This document shows positions 852-36,704 of a stretch of 64,000 nt of DNA, piece by piece. The translations under genes were made by a program, and so were the position numbers. Position 1 is the stretch's first letter. Every line of letters begins with the position of its first letter. Source of the DNA: Guyparkeria hydrothermalis (GTDB lineage: Bacteria > Pseudomonadota > Gammaproteobacteria > Halothiobacillales > Halothiobacillaceae); NCBI RefSeq assembly GCF_023555385.1, contig NZ_JAJSED010000001.1, forward strand, positions 1,178,001 through 1,242,000. The letters run 5' to 3'. Below the pieces are notes generated by a model that did not search any database, was not told the origin of the DNA, and worked only from the letters and a program-made list of their open reading frames with translations.

Positions 852-3023
852 ATGAAGATGACGACGAAGGTGCGACGCACCCCGACAAGTCGCGCCGTAC
901 GGCAAGCGCTTGCCTGGTCCGTGCCCTGTCTAGCGCTGGGCGCCACTGGCACCACCCTCGCCGAAGAAGCCGGCAGCGAAACAACCGTGCTCGAGAGCGT
1001 GGTGGTCGAGGGGGCCGGTTTCAGCCTGCCCACCGAGGAGACGGGCCAGTACGCCCCCACCGACTCGCAGACGGCGACCGGGCTGACCCTTTCCGCGCGC
1101 GAGACGCCGCAATCTCTCTCGGTCGTTACCAACCAGCAGATCGAGGACTTCAACCTCGACAGCGCCAACAAGGCGCTCGAAGCCACCCCGGGCGTGACGG
1201 TGGAGAAGGTCGAAACCGACCGCACCTACTACACCTCGCGCGGCTTCGACATCCAGAATTTCCAGATCGACGGCCTCGGGGCACCGTTCGCCTACGGCAA
1301 CGTCCAGGGCGACATCGACACGGCGGTGTACGACCGTATCGAGGTCATCCGTGGCGCCAATGGCCTGATGTCCGGTAGCGGCTCACCGTCGGCCACCGTC
1401 AACTTCATCCGCAAGCGCCCCACACCCGAAGCCCAGGCCGAGGTGGAGCTGAGTGCCGGCTCCTGGAACCGCCGCCGCGTGGAAGGCGACGTGTCCGGAC
1501 CAATCACCGAAGACAAACGCATCCGTGGCCGCCTGGTCGTCGCCGGCGAACAGGGCGAATCGTATCTCGACCGCTACGAGCGCGACCGCTACGTCGCCTA
1601 CGGGGTAGTCGAGGCGGACCTCACGGACAACACCATCCTGACCGCCGGCCACACCTGGCAGCAGAACAACGCCGATAGCCCGCTCTGGGGCGCCCTGCCG
1701 CTGTACTACACCGACGGCACCCAGACGGACTACGATCGTTCCACCGCCACGTCCTCGAACTGGGCCTACTGGGACAATCAGGACCGGCGCACCTTCGTCG
1801 AGCTCGAACACCATTTCACCAACGGCTGGCAGACGCGCGCGGCCATCAACCGCGTCGAAACCGAGGCGGACGCCAAGTTGTTCTACATGTACGGCACCCC
1901 GGACCCATCCACCGGACGCGGCCTGTACAGTTACCCGAGCCGCTATGACTACGACAACGAGCAGTGGATCGCCGACGTTCAGGCCAAGGGGCCGTTCGAT
2001 CTGCTCGGCCGCACGCACGAACTGGTCGCCGGCGTAAACTGGACCCGCTCGGAGACCGACGACATCTCGCACTACGGCGAGGACATCGGCACACCGCTGC
2101 CGCCGCTGGAGCAGTGGGACGGCAACTACCCGGAGCCTGACTTCACCGGCGGCACCGGCGGCAGCGAGTTCACCGACAGGGAAACGGCGGTCTACTCCGC
2201 GGCGCGACTGAACCTCAATGAGCGCACCACGGCGATCCTCGGCACGCGGGCGACCTGGCTGGACAACACCGGCGAGACCTACGGCACCACGCGCGAAACG
2301 TCCTACGACGCGGAGCTCACCCCCTACGCCGGCCTGGTCTACGACCTCAACGACCAGTTGTCCGCCTACGCGAGCTACACCGAGATCTTCGAGCCGCAGA
2401 CCGAGGTGGACATCAACCGACAGCGCCTCGATCCGATCGATGGCGTCAACTACGAGGTCGGTCTCAAGGCCGAACTGCTCGACAAGCGGCTGAACACCTC
2501 GTTCGCCGTGTTCCACACCGAGCAGGACAACGTCGCCGAGCCCGCGGGCACGATCCCGGGTACCGTGGACACCTACTACCGCGGTGCCGACGGGATCACC
2601 AGCCAGGGCATCGAGCTGACCGCCGCCGGCGAGATTCTGCCGGGCTGGCGAGCCATGGCCGGCTACACCTACGTGGACATCGAGAACGCCGACGGCGAGC
2701 GTGCGCGCAGCTTCATCCCGAAGCAGATGCTGCGGGCCAGCACGACGTACCGGCTGCCGTTCCTGCCGAAACTGACAGTTGGTGGCCAGCTGCGCTGGCA
2801 GAGCGACATCTCCCGGGAGCAGACCTCTGCCGACGGCACGACCCGCCAGGATGCCTACACGGTGGTCGACCTGATGGCCCGCTACGAGGTGAACAACCAG
2901 GTGGACGTCACGCTCAACCTGAACAACGTCACCGACGAGAAATACCTCACCAGCCTGCAGTGGGACCAGGGCTACTACGGCGCACCGCGCAACGCCATGC
3001 TGAGCGTCAACTGGCGCTACTGA
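852..3023 (+). CDS. TonB-dependent siderophore receptor
   Basis: A 723-residue outer-membrane receptor for ferric siderophores. A signal peptide occupies about residues 1-38, followed by a TonB-box-like stretch (LESVVVEG), the plug domain (RETPQSLSVVTNQQIED, then TSRGFDIQNFQIDG) and a 22-strand-type barrel. The end, with LNNVTDEKYLTSL and a final aromatic WRY, is typical of the FhuE/FpvA-like subfamily of siderophore receptors. The protein would pass a ferric hydroxamate or related chelate to the periplasmic binding protein encoded at 5243-6124, powered by the TonB-ExbB-ExbD genes nearby. A Fur-like box lies in its promoter and an intrinsic terminator follows, so it is probably a single-gene transcript convergent with the import operon. 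No strong ribosome binding site precedes the ATG at 852. The exact siderophore cannot be read from sequence. Confidence 0.93.
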   Translation: MKMTTKVRRTPTSRAVRQALAWSVPCLALGATGTTLAEEAGSETTVLESVVVEGAGFSLPTEETGQYAPTDSQTATGLTLSARETPQSLSVVTNQQIEDFNLDSANKALEATPGVTVEKVETDRTYYTSRGFDIQNFQIDGLGAPFAYGNVQGDIDTAVYDRIEVIRGANGLMSGSGSPSATVNFIRKRPTPEAQAEVELSAGSWNRRRVEGDVSGPITEDKRIRGRLVVAGEQGESYLDRYERDRYVAYGVVEADLTDNTILTAGHTWQQNNADSPLWGALPLYYTDGTQTDYDRSTATSSNWAYWDNQDRRTFVELEHHFTNGWQTRAAINRVETEADAKLFYMYGTPDPSTGRGLYSYPSRYDYDNEQWIADVQAKGPFDLLGRTHELVAGVNWTRSETDDISHYGEDIGTPLPPLEQWDGNYPEPDFTGGTGGSEFTDRETAVYSAARLNLNERTTAILGTRATWLDNTGETYGTTRETSYDAELTPYAGLVYDLNDQLSAYASYTEIFEPQTEVDINRQRLDPIDGVNYEVGLKAELLDKRLNTSFAVFHTEQDNVAEPAGTIPGTVDTYYRGADGITSQGIELTAAGEILPGWRAMAGYTYVDIENADGERARSFIPKQMLRASTTYRLPFLPKLTVGGQLRWQSDISREQTSADGTTRQDAYTVVDLMARYEVNNQVDVTLNLNNVTDEKYLTSLQWDQGYYGAPRNAMLSVNWRY

Positions 3024-8957: not shown

Positions 8958-8976
8958 AATGCAAACCGTTCGCATT
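8958..8976 (-). promoter_or_regulatory. Fur-like operator of the exbB-fhu operon
   Basis: The 19-bp AATGCAAACCGTTCGCATT is the best palindrome of its kind in the window: the half-sites AATGCAAAC and AATGCGAAC (reverse complement of the right half) agree at 8 of 9 positions. On the minus strand TTTGCA inside the box can serve as a -35, with a -10-like TAGGAT 18 nt on, so binding would occlude the promoter. Fur boxes of gammaproteobacteria commonly take this form; that assignment is inference. Confidence 0.75.
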
Positions 8977-9013: not shown

Positions 9014-9814
9014 TTAGCGCAGGCGGAAGGTCAGCGGCACGATCACGTCACCCGCGACGGGGCGCCCTCCCTTTGTGGCCGGATCGAAGCGCCACTGTTC
9101 GATGACCGCCATCGCCGCCCGGTCGAGCCGTTCGTGACCGCTGGAACGCTCGATCGACCAGTCCACCGGTCGTCCGTCGGGGCCGACCTGCACCCGGATG
9201 CGTACCGTCCCCTCCTGCCGCAACCGTAGCGACGCGCGCGGATAGGTCGGCGGCGGGTTGTCGAGATACCCCGCGGAGAAACTCGGCGGCGAAACGGGCT
9301 CCGGCTCCGGCCGAGCCGGCTCGGTCGGTGACGCCCCATCACTGGCCGACGGAGCACTCGCCTCAGCGGGCGCCCCAGTCCCGACTTCCTGGCGGGCTGG
9401 CTCAGGATCCGATTTCGGCTCTGGCTTCGGCTCCGGCTTGGGTTCTGGTTCGGGCTTCGGTTCCGGTTCGGGCTTGGACTCCGGTTCGGGCTTGGACTCC
9501 GGTTCAGGCTTGGACTCCGGTTCAGGCTTCGGTTCGAGCTTGGGCTCCATGCTGGCCGCCGGAGAGGATTTCGCCGCCAGTGGCGTGGACGGCATAGCCT
9601 GCGCAGCGGAAGCCGAGGGCCGGGAGACGGTGTCAGGCGATTGATTCGCCTCGGCCCGGGCCAGATCGATCCACTGGACGTGAGGAGCATTCTCGGCTGC
9701 GGACGAATCGGGCGTCTGTGCCGGCTGATCGAGCACAAACCAGGCGAGAGCCGCGTGCAACAAGGCACTGACCGTCACCCCGATCACGACCAACCGAGTT
9801 GTTTGTCTTGGCAT
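9014..9814 (-). CDS. tonB: Energy-transducing protein TonB
   Basis: A 266-residue TonB. One N-terminal membrane anchor (TRLVVIGVTVSALLHAALAW, with the usual SxxxH-type polar face) is followed by a periplasm-spanning segment of Lys-Pro-Glu-Pro repeats (about residues 89-140) and a C-terminal TonB domain beginning YLDNPPPTYPRASLRLRQEG and ending PLTFRLR. It links the ExbB-ExbD motor to outer-membrane receptors. The ATG at 9814 gives a normal anchor; a longer in-frame start would add an unlikely leader. It is on the same strand as, and upstream of, exbB but separated by a Fur-like box, so it probably has its own promoter, with another weaker Fur-like box at 9913-9931. Confidence 0.93.
   Translation of the reverse strand: MPRQTTRLVVIGVTVSALLHAALAWFVLDQPAQTPDSSAAENAPHVQWIDLARAEANQSPDTVSRPSASAAQAMPSTPLAAKSSPAASMEPKLEPKPEPESKPEPESKPEPESKPEPEPKPEPEPKPEPKPEPKSDPEPARQEVGTGAPAEASAPSASDGASPTEPARPEPEPVSPPSFSAGYLDNPPPTYPRASLRLRQEGTVRIRVQVGPDGRPVDWSIERSSGHERLDRAAMAVIEQWRFDPATKGGRPVAGDVIVPLTFRLR
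9411..9550 (-). repeat. In-gene repeats coding for the TonB Pro/Glu/Lys linker
   Basis: Degenerate tandem 12-18-bp units (plus-strand core GGCTTGGACTCCGGTTC, repeated about four times with small changes) encode KPEPES/KPEPEP blocks. Low-complexity repeats of this kind are normal in TonB linkers and prone to length change by slippage. This is not a CRISPR array: there are no spacers. Confidence 0.85.
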
Positions 9815-9912
9815 GGCTGAAGAACACCGGATTACGACGAGCGCGGCCGATTCGATCGTGGCCGATCGAACCCAGCGGGCCGCCACGGTAATCCAAACGA
9901 ATCACGGGCGCA

Positions 9913-9931
9913 AATAGCAATGATTCGCAGT
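9913..9931 (-). promoter_or_regulatory. Weaker Fur-like box upstream of tonB
   Basis: AATAGCAATGATTCGCAGT matches the idealised Fur-like palindrome at about 12 of 19 positions, better in the right half (ATTCGCAGT, 7 of 9). It lies 99 nt upstream of the tonB ATG. Location and pattern suggest iron control, but the match alone would not be significant. Confidence 0.4.
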
Positions 9932-17407: not shown

Positions 17408-18313
17408 TCAGTGCCAGCCGATGAAGGCGGTGGCCGCATCCGCCGCGTCGTAGAGGAACAGGTCACGGAACATGTGATCCGAGCCCGAGACGACCGTCAT
17501 CTCGATGTGCTCTTCCTTGGCCGGCTCGGCCATCTTCTCCTCGAGGTCGGTAATCGTGGTATCCGCCCCGGCTACGATCACCAGGGTGGGCACCGAAACC
17601 GCGCCCAGCACGGTGGGGGTATCCATCAGCGGGTCCTCGCGGTAGTAGCTGACCACACTGGCGGCCGTGGCCGTGGTGTCCTCGCAGTAGATGAAGTCCA
17701 TCTCCATCACCTCGTCGCCGCTGCCCTCGGCGACCAGGGTCTTGGCCTTCTCGAGGAGCGGCGCCAGTTCAGCGTCGTAACGCTTCTGGTAGTCCTTGGC
17801 GTGATAGCCCGCCGTCCAGGTCTGAGGCGCGAGCAGCACCGCCTTCTCGACGGCCGGATCGGGCTCGCCGGCGAGATAGCGCGCCACCTGGTTGCCACCA
17901 CGGGAGTGGCCCATCACCGCCAGTCGGTCGGCGCCCTCGCCTTTCAGCCATTCGGCCCAGGCGGCAATCTCGTCGACGGCGTTCTCGTGCTTGTGGCGGT
18001 GGGTGCTGGCGCAGTCGTACATGCCTTCGCGCGCATCCTGCCCCAGGCTGAGGTTGATGGCGAGCGCGTTGTAGCCCGACTCGGCCAGCAGGGACTGCAT
18101 GCTGCGCATGATCTCCATCTGGCCGTGGGCAAGCGTGCCATGGACCATCAGGACCACGCCGTCGGCGATCTCGCTGCCCGGCGCGATTTCCATGTGGCCG
18201 ACCAGTGTCGTGCCGTCGTGGTCCAGTTCGACCCGCTCGGCCGCCTGCGCGAGGCCACCGAGAAGCGGCAGACTCAAGGCGACGGCGGTCAGGGTCCGGA
18301 AGATGCTTTTCAT
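17408..18313 (-). CDS. Exported alpha/beta hydrolase
   Basis: A 301-residue secreted hydrolase. Signal peptide MKSIFRTLTAVALSLPLLGGLAQA, then an alpha/beta fold with oxyanion region VLMVHGTLAHG, nucleophile elbow GHSRGG (Ser about residue 137), a possible acid in VAGADTT and catalytic His in SGSDHMF. This is the DUF3530/BAAT-like or esterase-type architecture; the substrate is unknown. Two cysteines (YDCAST, YCEDTT) may form a disulfide in the periplasm. Ribosome binding site AAGGAGCC lies 9 nt upstream of the ATG. Upstream, on the same strand, the candidate small RNA ends at a strong terminator, so this gene has its own promoter. Confidence 0.8.
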   Translation of the reverse strand: MKSIFRTLTAVALSLPLLGGLAQAAERVELDHDGTTLVGHMEIAPGSEIADGVVLMVHGTLAHGQMEIMRSMQSLLAESGYNALAINLSLGQDAREGMYDCASTHRHKHENAVDEIAAWAEWLKGEGADRLAVMGHSRGGNQVARYLAGEPDPAVEKAVLLAPQTWTAGYHAKDYQKRYDAELAPLLEKAKTLVAEGSGDEVMEMDFIYCEDTTATAASVVSYYREDPLMDTPTVLGAVSVPTLVIVAGADTTITDLEEKMAEPAKEEHIEMTVVSGSDHMFRDLFLYDAADAATAFIGWH

Positions 18314-18421
18314 TGTTGTTGGCTCCTTTGGTGAATACCGGTTCCGCCGGAAAGTCTAGCCGGACGAAAGGGGAAATAATGCCCCGTAGGCAGGCCCGGG
18401 CGAGGAAAATCGATAAGCCAT

Positions 18422-18630
18422 GCCACAAAAAAATGGGCAGGCCGTTCCCCAAAAGGGATCGGCCTGCCCGAAAACTCACCGCAGGAGGAGTCAATAAAAA
18501 CGAAGAGAAGAAGCTCTCAACGCGACCCACATGCTTTGACCGGAAAAAGATTCAGGAGTTCCCCGGATCGATACATCGTGAGCGGCTGGGTTGGCTGACT
18601 TGGCCTGCCTCACTTCGTTTTCATGTGACG
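18422..18630 (-). ncRNA. Candidate Fur-repressed small RNA (RyhB/PrrF-like in arrangement)
   Basis: About 205 nt with no credible gene lie between an iron-box promoter and an intrinsic terminator. The minus strand has a perfect-quality -10 TATACT (18642-18637), a -35-like TTTGCA 17 nt before it inside a Fur-like box (18658-18676), a predicted start near 18629, and a 10-bp stem terminator with seven Ts ending about 18427. The transcript holds a U-rich, Hfq-site-like stretch (TTCTTCTCTTCGTTTTTATT, in plus coordinates 18511-18492) directly followed by CTCCTCCT (18490-18483), an exact anti-Shine-Dalgarno. The only open frames are of 4-19 codons without ribosome sites. No sequence similarity to RyhB or PrrF is claimed; the call rests on architecture. 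Confidence 0.6.
18427..18469 (-). terminator. Strong intrinsic terminator of the small-RNA candidate
   Basis: Minus strand: GGGCAGGCCG stem arm (18469-18460 complement), an internal loop able to add CCC/GGG pairs, the matching arm CGGCCTGCCC (complement of 18444-18435), then A and seven Ts (18433-18427). The 10-bp perfect stem is the strongest terminator in the window, yet no protein-coding gene ends next to it: dnaE2 stops 234 nt upstream. Confidence 0.9.
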
Positions 18631-18636
18631 GGGAGA

Positions 18637-18676
18637 AGTATATCAATCACACATGCAAATGCAAACGTTTCGCGTT
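18637..18676 (-). promoter_or_regulatory. Small-RNA promoter overlapped by a Fur-like box
   Basis: The 19-bp AATGCAAACGTTTCGCGTT (18658-18676) matches the Fur-like palindrome of the exbB promoter at 15 of 19 positions, including the whole left half AATGCAAAC. On the minus strand it contains the -35-like TTTGCA; TATACT (18642-18637) follows at 17 bp. It begins 27 nt downstream of the dnaE2 stop and directs transcription leftwards into the non-coding region. Confidence 0.65.
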
Positions 18677-18702
18677 TCCGTTTGCGAGACGCGTGGGGCT
18701 CG

Positions 18703-21700
18703 TCAGTGAAAGTCGCGTGAGCGCGCCGGCAGGCGCCCCAGCCACTCGCTGTGATCGACCAGCACCCGCGCGACCAGATGCGCCACGCCCTCGCGATGCT
18801 GCCACTGGCCGCGCACCTCCAGCAGGCGGGCACCCACCACCACTTGCTGGTATTCGGCCACCCGATCGGGCCAGACGATCACGTTGACCGTGCCCGCTTC
18901 GTCCTCGAGCGTCATAAACACCGTCCCCTTGGCCGTACCGGGGCGCTGGCGCATGGTCACCAGCCCGCAGTAGCGCGTGTGTGCGCCGTCATGTCGGGTC
19001 TTGAGCTCGTCGCTGCGTCGCAGCCGCAGCCGGCGCAACCGCTCGCGCAGCAATGCCAGCGGATGACCATTCAGCGACAGCCCCAGCCGCTGATAGTCCG
19101 CAAGGATGGTCTGTGCGGCATCGGGGGCGGGCAACTCGACGGCCGGCTCGCCGACCGAGCGGTCGGCAGGCAGACCCGCCTCGAGCGCGAGATCGTCCGG
19201 AATGCCGGTCGCCGACCAGTGGGCGGCATGCCGGTTGCCTTCCAGCGCGGCGAAGGCACCGGCCTGCGCCAGCACCCGCCGGTCACGCGCATCCAGCCGG
19301 GCACGGCGCACGCAGTCGGCCACCTGCCGGAACGGCGCGACCCGACGAGCGGCCAGCAGGCGCTCGATACCGCCGGCGGACAGCCCGCGGATGCGGTCCA
19401 GCCCCAGACGCAAGGCGTGGGTCGCGGTGGCACCGCCACCCCCTGCCAGCGGCTCGAGCGTGCTCTCGTCCTGACTGGCCAGCACGCAGGGCGGACGCAC
19501 CACCACGCCGTGGCGACGGGCGTCCTGCACCAGCTGCGATGGCCCGTAGAAGCCCATCGGCTGGCTGTTAAGCAACGCGCAGTAGAAGGCGACCGGCTCG
19601 TGGCACTTGAGCCAGGCCGAGGCGTAGGCGATCACGGCAAAGCTGGCCGAGTGCGATTCGGGGAAGCCGTACTCGCCGAAACCGAGGATCTGGCGGTAGA
19701 CCCGGTCGGCAAAATCGGGCGTGAAGCCGCGCGCGGTCATGCCGTCATACAGCTTCTTGCGAAAGTCCTCGAGCGTGCCGCGCTTTCGCCATGCCCCCAG
19801 CGCCCGGCGCAGCTGGTCGGCCTCGCCGGCGGAAAAGCCCGCCGCCACCATGGCCAGCTCGATCACCTGTTCCTGGAAGATCGGCACGCCCAGGGTGCGC
19901 CCCAGCACCCGCCGGATCTCCTCGTTCGGATACTCCTCGGGCTCGAGACCCTGACGGCGCTTGAGGTACGGGTGAACCATCTCGCCCTGGATCGGGCCGG
20001 GGCGGACGATCGCGATCTCGATCACCAGATCGTAGAACGAGCGCGGCTGCAGGCGCGGCAGCATGCTCATCTGCGCGCGCGACTCGATCTGGAACACGCC
20101 GACGGTATCGGCACGACTGATCATCTCGAAGGTCGCGGCGTCCTCGCGCGGGATCGACCACAGCGCCAGCGGCAGTTCGCGCGGCCGATGCCGGTTGGCC
20201 AGCTCGAACGCCCGGCGCACCGCCGAGAACATGCCCAGTGCGAGCACGTCGATCTTCATCAGGCCGACGGCATCGAGGTCGTCCTTGTCCCACTGGATCA
20301 CGGTGCGGTCGGCCATCGAGGCGTTCTCCACCGGCACCAGGTCGGCCAGCTGCCCGCGGGCGATGACGAAACCGCCGACGTGCTGCGAGAGATGACGTGG
20401 CATGCCGGTCAGCTGCCGGGCGATCGCAAGCCACCAGCGGATGCGTCGCTGCTCGCCGTCGATGCCGGCCGCGGCCAGCTTCTCGGCGCTCACCTCGCGA
20501 TCCCACCAGGCCAGCTGCTCATTGACCCGTTCCTGCACGTCCTCGCCGATACCCAGCGCCCGAGCGGCGTCGCGCAGGGCCGAGCGGCGCCGGTAGCGGA
20601 TCACCGTGGCCGCGAGCGCCGCCCGTTCGCGGCCGTAGCGCCGGTAGATGTACTGCATCACTTCCTCGCGGCGGTGATGCTCGAAGTCGACATCGATGTC
20701 CGGCGGCTCGGCACGTTCCTTGGAGATGAAGCGCTCGAACAGCATCGAGGACTCGGCCGGGTTGACCGCCGTGATGCCGAGCGCGAAGCACACCGCCGAG
20801 TTGGCCGCCGAGCCACGTCCCTGGCAGAGGATCCCGCGCGAGCGGGCGAAGCGGACGATGTCGTGGACGGTGAGAAAGTACGGCTCGAAGGCCATCTCGC
20901 GGATGATACCGAGCTCGCGCTCGATCTGCGCGGCCACCTTCGGCGGCACACCGTCGGGCCAGCGCTTCGCCGCCCCCTCGAAGGTCAGCCGTCGCAGGTG
21001 CTCATGGCCCGGCACGCCCGGCGGGATGTCGTCGAGCGGGTACTCGTAGGCCAGCTCGTCGATCGAGAACCGGCACGTGCCGGCCAGCCGCAGCGCCTCG
21101 GCACGCCATTCGGCAGGGAACAGCTCGGCCAGTGCCTCGAGCGGGCGCAGGTGGCGCTCGGCATTGCGCGGCAGGCGGTCGGCCGCCGCCATCACCGTGG
21201 TGCGATGGCGCAGGGCCGTAACCACATCCAACAGCGGCTTTTCCTCGGACTCGGCCATCAGCGTGTCGCCCAGCGCCGTGACCGGCAGGCCGTGCGCCGC
21301 AGCCAGCCGCCGCGCGTTTGCGGCGCGCGCACCATCGAGCCCGTCGAGCCAGGCCACCACGCCGAGCCAGGGACGGGTGGCGGCCAGCAGCCACGCCGGG
21401 CCAAGGCGGTCGTCGGCCGGCACCTGCCAGATCACGCGCACCCCGGCTGCGAGCCCGTCGAGTACCGCCGCCCGATCGAGGCGGTACTCGCCCTTGGCCG
21501 CCGCCCGCCGACCGCGGGTGATCAGCTGGCTGATCGCGGCATAGCCGGCCCGGTCGGCCGCCAGCAGCACCAGCTCGTCGCCCTCCTCCAGCACCAGCCG
21601 CGCACCGAGAATCAGCTGCGGCCGGTCATCCGCCGGCAGCGCCTTCCAGCCCTGCTGGGCGCGCACCACCCCAGCGAACGAGCACTCGTCGCAGATGGCG

Positions 21701-21810
21701 ATGGCCGCATAGCCGCGCTCGACCGCCGTCGCCACCAGTTGCTCGGGATCGGCGGTGGCGGCGAGAAAACTGAAGTTGGAGCGGGCAGACAATTCGGCAT
21801 AGGCATTCAT
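18703..21810 (-). CDS. dnaE2: Error-prone DNA polymerase DnaE2
   Basis: A 1035-residue C-family polymerase alpha subunit. It shows an N-terminal PHP domain (about 1-200) whose usual His-x-His start is replaced by YAELSARSNFSFL, as is common in DnaE2. The catalytic aspartates are in PPDIDVDFEHH (about D371, D373) and GLMKIDVLALGM (about D521). RPGPIQGEMVHPYL and FPESHSASFA are further signatures, and an OB domain lies near 950. DnaE2 carries out damage-tolerant synthesis in SOS mutagenesis. The ATG at 21810 is 7 nt from a perfect LexA box and lacks a ribosome site; a 46-residue upstream extension would cover that box, so I reject it. imuA and imuB, its normal partners, are not adjacent. Confidence 0.93.
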   Translation of the reverse strand: MNAYAELSARSNFSFLAATADPEQLVATAVERGYAAIAICDECSFAGVVRAQQGWKALPADDRPQLILGARLVLEEGDELVLLAADRAGYAAISQLITRGRRAAAKGEYRLDRAAVLDGLAAGVRVIWQVPADDRLGPAWLLAATRPWLGVVAWLDGLDGARAANARRLAAAHGLPVTALGDTLMAESEEKPLLDVVTALRHRTTVMAAADRLPRNAERHLRPLEALAELFPAEWRAEALRLAGTCRFSIDELAYEYPLDDIPPGVPGHEHLRRLTFEGAAKRWPDGVPPKVAAQIERELGIIREMAFEPYFLTVHDIVRFARSRGILCQGRGSAANSAVCFALGITAVNPAESSMLFERFISKERAEPPDIDVDFEHHRREEVMQYIYRRYGRERAALAATVIRYRRRSALRDAARALGIGEDVQERVNEQLAWWDREVSAEKLAAAGIDGEQRRIRWWLAIARQLTGMPRHLSQHVGGFVIARGQLADLVPVENASMADRTVIQWDKDDLDAVGLMKIDVLALGMFSAVRRAFELANRHRPRELPLALWSIPREDAATFEMISRADTVGVFQIESRAQMSMLPRLQPRSFYDLVIEIAIVRPGPIQGEMVHPYLKRRQGLEPEEYPNEEIRRVLGRTLGVPIFQEQVIELAMVAAGFSAGEADQLRRALGAWRKRGTLEDFRKKLYDGMTARGFTPDFADRVYRQILGFGEYGFPESHSASFAVIAYASAWLKCHEPVAFYCALLNSQPMGFYGPSQLVQDARRHGVVVRPPCVLASQDESTLEPLAGGGGATATHALRLGLDRIRGLSAGGIERLLAARRVAPFRQVADCVRRARLDARDRRVLAQAGAFAALEGNRHAAHWSATGIPDDLALEAGLPADRSVGEPAVELPAPDAAQTILADYQRLGLSLNGHPLALLRERLRRLRLRRSDELKTRHDGAHTRYCGLVTMRQRPGTAKGTVFMTLEDEAGTVNVIVWPDRVAEYQQVVVGARLLEVRGQWQHREGVAHLVARVLVDHSEWLGRLPARSRDFH

Positions 21811-35527: not shown

Positions 35528-36562
35528 TTAGAAGGACAGCGCCAGCTGGGTGGTGAACGTGCCGGCCGTCTCGCCGGTACCGCCCTCGGCGGGGTCGTAG
35601 TCATGATCGTGGGCGTACTCGAAGCCGAGCGTGGTGTTGCGCCAGACATCCACCGAGAAAGCCGCCAGGGCCCGGCGTCTCGGCAGGCCCACCTCGACCG
35701 CCTCCTCGCTGCCCTGGTAGCCAAGTGCGACCTGGGCCGGCCGGCCATGGATATGAAAGCCGTAGCCAACCTCGACGTTCCAGGCGGCCGGGCGAGCCCC
35801 GACGCCATGAAAGGCGAGCTGCCCCGCGGCGAAGTCGTCGATCGCGGCCAGGTATTCCCCCACCAGGGTGAATCCATGGAAGTCGAGCACCGTGGTGGCC
35901 GTCCAGGCGCCGACCTCCTCGCCCCGGCCCTCGTCGGAAGCGGCGACCTGCTCCTGAAGCGCGTCGGATTCACCCAAGTGGTTGAGGTAGCCGCCGGCGA
36001 CCAGCACGTCGACCTCCCCGAGATCCGCCTCGTAATCGACGGTCGCGCCCCAGTTGTCGACCCGGGTCTCACCGTCCGCATCGCCATTGAAGGTGTAAAC
36101 CCCAACGCGGAAGCCACCGGCACCGGCCTGAGCCGAGATGGCCGTTTCGCGCGCCTCGCCCAGTTCCAGCGTCAGCGGGTCGGACACCATAGCGGTTTCG
36201 AAAAGCCCGAACGGCACGTAAAACTGGCCGGCACGCAGTGACCAGACCTGATCCGGATGGATCACGGAGACGCTCGCCGTGTCGATCTCCAGCGGCGTCG
36301 CGTTTTCCTCGTAGAGCGTGGTGACCTCGGCGCTCAACCACTCGTTGAGGATCGCCTCAACCCCGAGTGCCCCGGTTGCCAGCACAATGTCGCTTTCGTC
36401 CGCCCCGGTGTAGGGCGTGGCGTGGTACGCCTCGATCTCCCCCAGCCCCTCGACGGCGATTCTCGGGAAGGATGGGGTCTTCTCGGCGATAGCCGGTGCG
36501 GCCAACGCCAGCGAGAGAGGCAGGGAAACAGCCAGTCGGCCGGCAGGTTTGATCTGCTGCAT
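35528..36562 (-). CDS. LbtU-like outer-membrane siderophore porin
   Basis: A 344-residue predicted outer-membrane beta-barrel. Signal peptide (LAVSLPLSLALAAPAIA, cleaved near residue 26) and alternating amphipathic strands through to a terminal TFTTQLALSF ending in Phe. Segments such as LYEENATPLEIDTASVSV, LRAGQFYVPFGLFET and FGFEYAHDHDY-type strands resemble the LbtU family, a TonB-independent legiobactin receptor of Legionella. Outer-membrane location is solid; the siderophore role is inferred from family and from the Fur-like box upstream. First gene of the operon with imelysin and the di-haem cytochrome. Confidence 0.75.
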   Translation of the reverse strand: MQQIKPAGRLAVSLPLSLALAAPAIAEKTPSFPRIAVEGLGEIEAYHATPYTGADESDIVLATGALGVEAILNEWLSAEVTTLYEENATPLEIDTASVSVIHPDQVWSLRAGQFYVPFGLFETAMVSDPLTLELGEARETAISAQAGAGGFRVGVYTFNGDADGETRVDNWGATVDYEADLGEVDVLVAGGYLNHLGESDALQEQVAASDEGRGEEVGAWTATTVLDFHGFTLVGEYLAAIDDFAAGQLAFHGVGARPAAWNVEVGYGFHIHGRPAQVALGYQGSEEAVEVGLPRRRALAAFSVDVWRNTTLGFEYAHDHDYDPAEGGTGETAGTFTTQLALSF

Positions 36563-36680
36563 GACAACTCCTGATCGTCATTCGCCCCTATTGAGAGGCG
36601 ACTGTTGGTCAGGGCTGGCTGGCGACGGCTGGCTTGCCCTTTAGAGAAAACGCACGAGTCGGGCCGTGCGCTGGCCCCGC

Positions 36681-36704
36681 ATTGTAATGCAAATCGTTCG
36701 TATT
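36681..36704 (-). promoter_or_regulatory. Fur-like box and -10 of the LbtU operon
   Basis: AATGCAAATCGTTCGTATT (36686-36704) differs from the exbB operator at only two positions. On the minus strand TACAAT (36686-36681) abuts it and is a good -10 (5 of 6), so a bound repressor would sit on the spacer and -35 region. Its distance to the porin ATG is about 120 nt. Confidence 0.7.

Follow-up and report, generated by a model that had tools for sequence, protein, structure and literature searches.

A stretch of 64,000 nucleotides of Guyparkeria hydrothermalis DNA (the window) contains, between the genes for an error-prone DNA polymerase, dnaE2, and an alpha/beta hydrolase, an intergenic region from which a candidate small RNA (sRNA) of about 203 nt would be transcribed from the minus strand, from 18629 to 18427 (Table 1). 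Its likely transcription start is G18629, beyond which some 160 nt lack any shared ORF before an invariant linker is reached. The promoter is the one sigma-70-like site found between 13000 and 25000, where 0.8 would be expected, and its -10 element is kept as TATAMT in all ten homologues. At the other end is the terminator, which folds at -32.1 kcal/mol; no hairpin followed by a T-run elsewhere in the window is as strong, the closest reaching -21.5. The original prediction, which was made from the letters alone, had listed a Fur-like box with a -35 inside it, a TATACT, a gene-free stretch of about 205 nt, the window's strongest terminator and the anti-Shine-Dalgarno string CTCCTCCT, all on one strand; each is where it was said to be on the minus strand, and the box (18676..18658) does cover the -35 of TTTGCA-17-TATACT. 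The stretch holds no convincing gene: no ORF of at least 20 aa is shared across the ten homologues, and a protein-coding reading was rejected as the ORFs of that size differ among them.

Table 1. Features of the sRNA locus and related sites, in window coordinates
Feature	Position	Strand	Remarks
sRNA gene	18427..18629	-	5′ end estimated 7 nt past the -10; 3′ end is the T-run
Sigma-70-type promoter, TTTGCA-17-TATACT	18637..18665	-	-35 within the predicted Fur box
Predicted Fur box, 19-bp palindrome AACGCGAAACGTTTGCATT	18658..18676	-	overlaps the -35; conserved in 10 homologues
Helix P1, 5′ arm	18610..18629	-	start of the RNA; pairs with CUUCGUUUUCAUYGAC
Proposed seed, loop GGGGAACUCCUGAAUC	18549..18564	-	13 bp to the c-type cytochrome RBS
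Helix P1, 3′ arm, about CUUCUUCUCUUCGUUUUUAUUGAC	18490..18512	-	pairs with the 5′ arm
Invariant linker CUCCUCCUGCGGUGAGUUUU	18471..18490	-	homologue alignment; holds the anti-Shine-Dalgarno string of the original prediction
Intrinsic terminator, stem GGGCAGGCCG..CGGCCUGCCC + U7	18427..18469	-	12 pairs kept in 10/10 homologues
dnaE2 (error-prone DNA polymerase)	18703..21810	-	upstream neighbour; NCBIfam PRK05672, 1362 bits
Alpha/beta hydrolase	17408..18313	-	downstream neighbour, past the sRNA terminator; Pfam
Second box copy	8958..8976	-	upstream of exbB-exbD-fhuF-fhuC-fhuD-fhuB (8911 to 3274)
Third box copy	36686..36704	-	upstream of LbtU siderophore porin and imelysin genes (36562 to 34399)

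The unit, box included, is present in 10 of 11 Guyparkeria genomes at 68-86% identity, the sole genome without it being 64% complete, and in all ten loci it lies downstream of dnaE2, the 3′ end of which is readable in each. A covariance model of the sRNA scores 176-239 bits in these ten genomes and finds no match in 16 genomes, at least 12 of them over 90% complete, from three other genera of Halothiobacillaceae; a search for the motif in viral contigs also found none. Halothiobacillus seems to be without the sRNA. The predicted fold is 5 SD better than that of dinucleotide shuffles (z-score -5.0). For helix P1 and the terminator taken together, 98.9% of cells are paired in the homologues, compared with 40-57% for slid controls, and 4 pairs have changed on both sides so that the helices are kept by substitution. 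Conservation of 18420-18680 in relatives had been proposed as a check, with a coding pattern counting against an RNA; what is kept in 10 of 11 genomes is stems and seed-like elements, with no coding pattern. Sequence and conservation thus describe a stand-alone non-coding unit with an intrinsic terminator, and given its genus-wide recurrence downstream of dnaE2 and its fold, the sRNA gene is more than a product of chance.

The part of such an RNA that would make contact with mRNAs was first placed at CTCCTCCT (18490-18483). This string is invariant in the homologues and belongs to the linker CTCCTCCTGCGGTGAGTTTT, which directly precedes the terminator and is better conserved than any other part of the sRNA. 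A search of the whole genome for the extended linker complement, allowing up to 3 mismatches, gave no other occurrence, hence none at an RBS; matches to a shorter form of the complement were never at RBSs, and CAGGAGGA-N-ATG was found for the most part before spurious ORFs and never before the gene of an iron protein. Among 1007 start regions the longest run complementary to the linker is 10 nt, a length that 87% of core-keeping shuffles reach. Neither in the genome nor in these start regions, then, does CTCCTCCT as a targeting seed have a target above chance, and an anti-Shine-Dalgarno string may be invariant without being the seed that is used. The CUCCUCC linker may serve further mRNAs. Pairing of the linker to codons 2-6 of the cytochrome mRNA discussed below, which was seen on cofolding, was rejected, the linker-cytochrome energy ranking 389 of 719. 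Duplex energies for the full-length RNA had no meaning and were left aside.

A second anti-Shine-Dalgarno-like patch, ACTCCT at about 18559-18554, is absent from the original prediction. It lies in a hairpin loop with the core GGGGAACUCCUGA (18564-18552, minus strand), of which GGGGAAC and GAA are invariant while CUCCU varies in one genome only. The loop is presumed to be accessible: in the predicted folds it is unpaired in two homologues (L001 and L002) but partly paired in most of the others, which counts against the proposed pairing. The stem of its hairpin (alignment columns 101-106/122-127) has no two-sided changes. When the genus was searched for TTCAGGAG followed by ATG, there emerged, besides the sRNA itself, TTCAGGAGTTCCCC-ATG before the gene for a 113-aa c-type cytochrome in one genome (G008). 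Its orthologues in the ten genomes have UCAGGAGUUCCCC or UCAGGAGUUCCUC either immediately or one A before the AUG, and the RBS UCAGGAGUUCCYC is found in 10 of the 10 genomes that carry the sRNA. Paired with the cytochrome RBS of its own genome, the loop forms 13 pairs in nine of the ten, all of them Watson-Crick in six genomes and including a single G-U in the other three, with the pairing weakened in G007; in G008 it extends to 18 bp and spans the AUG. Among 190 loci the 13-mer is confined to sRNA loci and cytochrome RBSs. A run of 13 nt is reached by 1.7% of the loop shuffles that keep CUCCU. By loop energy the cytochrome comes first of the 1007 start regions (-31.3, against a mean of -14.7 and SD of 3.2), these having been drawn from 1.18 Mb, with the cytochrome-bearing stretch included on purpose, by a simple gene caller that miscalled some starts.

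The protein encoded has a signal peptide-like start and one CxxCH, i.e. it is mono-haem, and matches Pfam Cytochrom_C at 55.5 bits, its best solved relative being 8yts, ‘Cytochrome C’. As a haem protein it fits an iron-sparing role. The loop GGGGAACUCCUGA, with the c-type cytochrome mRNA as its target, is a better supported seed than CTCCTCCT, and the earlier suggestion that any mRNA with AGGAGG might be a target is, for that reason, too broad. Judging from this complementarity, the sRNA probably prevents the synthesis of an electron carrier that contains haem.

An unlikely reading is that the Fur-regulated sRNA is real and its match to the cytochrome coincidental, the true targets being reached through the CUCCUCCUGYGGUGAGUUU linker or through several short contacts. 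The superior conservation of the linker would be understandable in those terms. So would the outcome of the energy criterion, by which 13 of 116 CUCCU-keeping loop shuffles find an equally good partner (p about 0.11), and that of swapping partners among species, which did not weaken the pairing (p = 0.44), the cytochrome leader being conserved in general; because of the latter result no co-evolution of loop and cytochrome is claimed. Both outcomes also weigh against the main reading. The coincidence, however, would have to have been kept in ten species, weakened in one, exactly on the RBS of a gene with a haem protein as product, and the linker that would replace the loop lacks extended RBS complementarity in the genome, its best run being an ordinary one.

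The case for control by iron comes from the box, which, by computation, lies over the promoter within a conserved stretch from about 18651 to 18687 (the minus strand reads CGCAAACGGAAACGCGAAACGTTTGCATTTGCAT from 18687). With up to 3 mismatches the 19-mer AATGCRAAACGTTTGCATT occurs at three places in the 2.39 Mb genome, all within the window, and a reversed control pattern has zero sites. Apart from the sRNA promoter it is thus present only before iron-uptake operons, which bears out the proposal of a Fur-like box; the LbtU porin and imelysin genes are followed by one for a di-haem oxidoreductase. A matrix of these boxes run over 1.18 Mb, about half of the genome, ranks the sRNA, exbB and LbtU sites at the top, and fourth is one located 19 bp upstream of an operon for a cupredoxin and an FTR1 iron permease. 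Weaker sites precede tonB (site at 9913; gene 9014-9886) and a TonB-dependent receptor gene (site at 766; gene 921-3023). Since the matrix was built partly from sites that it recovers, those of FTR1, tonB and the TonB receptor are the sole independent ones. By hand count about 10 of 19 positions of the sRNA box match the E. coli Fur consensus, and so the attribution of the box to Fur depends on the genes that have it in common. The LbtU box is Fur-type in three relatives, where it drifts to AATACGAATGATTTGTATT and AATAATAACGATTCGTATT, nearer the classical Fur sequence. The genome encodes one Fur, which scores above its curated cut-off, and a single Zur-like protein that stays below cut-off. 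The position of the box over the -35 fits repression. On these grounds Fur very probably binds the sRNA box, and transcription of the sRNA probably sets in once iron becomes scarce. The window itself begins with an apparent siderophore-uptake island, to which the weaker Fur-like sites at 766 and 9913 belong.

That the sRNA is real and the box that of another regulator, such as Zur or a LacI-type protein, in which case there would be no control by iron, is quite improbable. The modest agreement with the E. coli consensus, the existence of the second, Zur-like member of the Fur family and the fact that one box adjoins a ZnuA-type ABC operon would suit it; that operon, however, ends at the box instead of starting there, and sites of the same matrix precede genes for siderophore uptake, TonB, a TonB receptor and FTR1. 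Still more improbable, and chiefly because its start codon is missing from this very genome (and from L010), is a plus-strand leader peptide or small protein, for which the ‘anti-Shine-Dalgarno’ would be just the complement of a true Shine-Dalgarno: AGGAGGA-GTC-ATG followed by some 13 codons (MKTKKHLNATHGL in several relatives) can be discerned, and AGGAGGAGTCRATG with an ORF of 13-14 codons is present in 6 of 10 homologues and a longer ORF in two more, but ORF lengths and frames differ among homologues, the upstream plus-side sequence is not conserved, a conserved promoter, box and terminator exist only in the opposite direction, and helix P1 accounts for the conserved start region. On the plus strand at 18477-18530, eight of the ten homologues (L002-L009) have AGGAGGAGTC-(A/G)ATG, a Shine-Dalgarno and then ATG, and this pattern is probably a by-product of helix P1.

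The locus is, with good likelihood, that of a Fur-repressed, base-pairing, trans-acting sRNA that spares iron. Iron-loaded Fur bound to the box over the -35 would block transcription, for which the computational evidence is strong, and iron starvation would free the promoter. The transcript of about 203 nt, as read from the sequence, would end at the strong intrinsic terminator with its U7 tail. Such a tail after a terminator is typical of Hfq-bound sRNAs, and the genome encodes Hfq. The loop GGGGAACUCCUGA is predicted to form 13 bp with the cytochrome mRNA around its Shine-Dalgarno and to block ribosome binding, with the predicted pairing in G008 reaching 18 bp and including the AUG. The target mRNA would be that of the 113-aa mono-haem c-type cytochrome, presumed periplasmic, and the haem iron thereby saved would be available for essential uses. 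The promoter, box, terminator, conserved RNA, complementarity and Hfq gene can be read from the sequence; Fur repression, induction at low iron, Hfq binding, the block of cytochrome translation and the saving of iron are inferred from it. A narrower version, in which a genus-specific Fur-controlled sRNA mainly shuts off one respiratory c-type cytochrome by 13-18 bp of RBS pairing while the second, invariant anti-Shine-Dalgarno linker is left unexplained, is put forward tentatively, at somewhat less than even chance. Of the iron-sparing design originally envisaged, a Fur-controlled, stand-alone, terminated RNA of unrecognised family has held up, while the seed CTCCTCCT has not.

That the sequence belongs to no recognised family is supported by a covariance search of the window with Rfam, which gave no match at gathering thresholds; RyhB, PrrF and NrrF are absent even among the best weak matches for the sRNA (E up to 10). 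Known Rfam families were rejected, the weak matches being noise: NmsRb (RF02877) reaches 18.7 bits against a cut-off of 52, and in the case of 6S RNA (RF00013) the canonical 6S of this genome sits elsewhere, at 83.8 bits. With RyhB of E. coli, PrrF of Pseudomonas and NrrF of Neisseria the Guyparkeria sRNA has in common a Fur box at the promoter, an independent unit, an intrinsic terminator, Hfq in the genome and a predicted repression of iron-protein mRNAs; it differs in being about twice the length of RyhB, in its long P1 helix and in having a c-type cytochrome as its predicted target. Closest in style is IsrR of Staphylococcus, a Fur-repressed RNA whose single-stranded C-rich patches bind mRNAs of iron proteins at their Shine-Dalgarno and start codon (PMC9410917), and Shine-Dalgarno binding is stated in the same paper for FsrA of Bacillus. 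FsrA, too, is repressed by Fur. These two are Firmicute RNAs with other sequences, other folds and no synteny in common with the Guyparkeria sRNA, and in contrast to them the best pairing of the latter is one long match of 13-18 bp. BrrF, a low-iron sRNA of Burkholderia, is confined to its lineage and does not resemble other Fur-regulated sRNAs in sequence (PMC7377471). It is located downstream of hemP without a Fur box of its own, whereas the Guyparkeria sRNA has a predicted one on its own promoter. Anti-Shine-Dalgarno seed sequences like those of the Guyparkeria sRNA are also present in NmsR/RcoF of Neisseria and in alpha-proteobacterial anti-Shine-Dalgarno sRNAs such as SisA-D, none of which is known to be under Fur control. 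By analogy the sRNA would work like RyhB, PrrF, NrrF, FsrA and IsrR, without detected homology to them.

Iron-sparing sRNAs that are unrelated in sequence seem to have evolved on many occasions, and that of Guyparkeria is likely an independent case. Members of the genus are halophilic sulfur-oxidising chemolithoautotrophs with an energy metabolism that depends on c-type cytochromes; if the proposal is right, such an organism would rewire a carrier of its electron transport when iron is short. In the open-access literature searched, subscription journals being outside its scope, no description of a regulatory RNA of Guyparkeria was found, and the genome papers on the genus that were examined do not use the term small RNA. 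Since a single mRNA stands out as partner, the proposed seed is delimited and ten species supply natural variants, the predicted link from iron to respiration is testable.

Other potential partners of the loop were considered. Second by length of run is the RBS of argG (G000:C1:619158 and orthologues), where ATTCAGGAGTTC offers 12 nt of complementarity, and it was set aside as the 12-nt match is present in 5 of 11 genomes only. SerC, DapD and GrpE have TTCAGGAG in most genomes with a match of just 8 nt, and were taken to have ordinary RBSs. The partial complementarity of a multi-haem cytochrome gene adjoining the target is uninformative, because its whole leader is conserved. The LbtU porin gene has at its RBS (36549-36576, minus strand) 9 nt, TCAGGAGTT, complementary to the sRNA loop; lying behind a Fur box, this gene would be Fur-induced and so an odd target for the sRNA.

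Two single cases among the cytochrome leaders are suggestive: in G009 AUUUC in the sRNA faces GAAAU in the leader, and in G008 the 18 bp are found although the flanking leader has diverged. Some 25 nt upstream of the RBS, all ten leaders also have a hairpin with a perfect stem of 6 bp, CCGAGC-AGGAGUNN-GCUCGG (L097 1420-1500; G000:C1 about 1700110-1700190). The AGGAGU that it displays is the complement of ACUCCU, a string with two occurrences in the sRNA, and the hairpin could be a second docking site.
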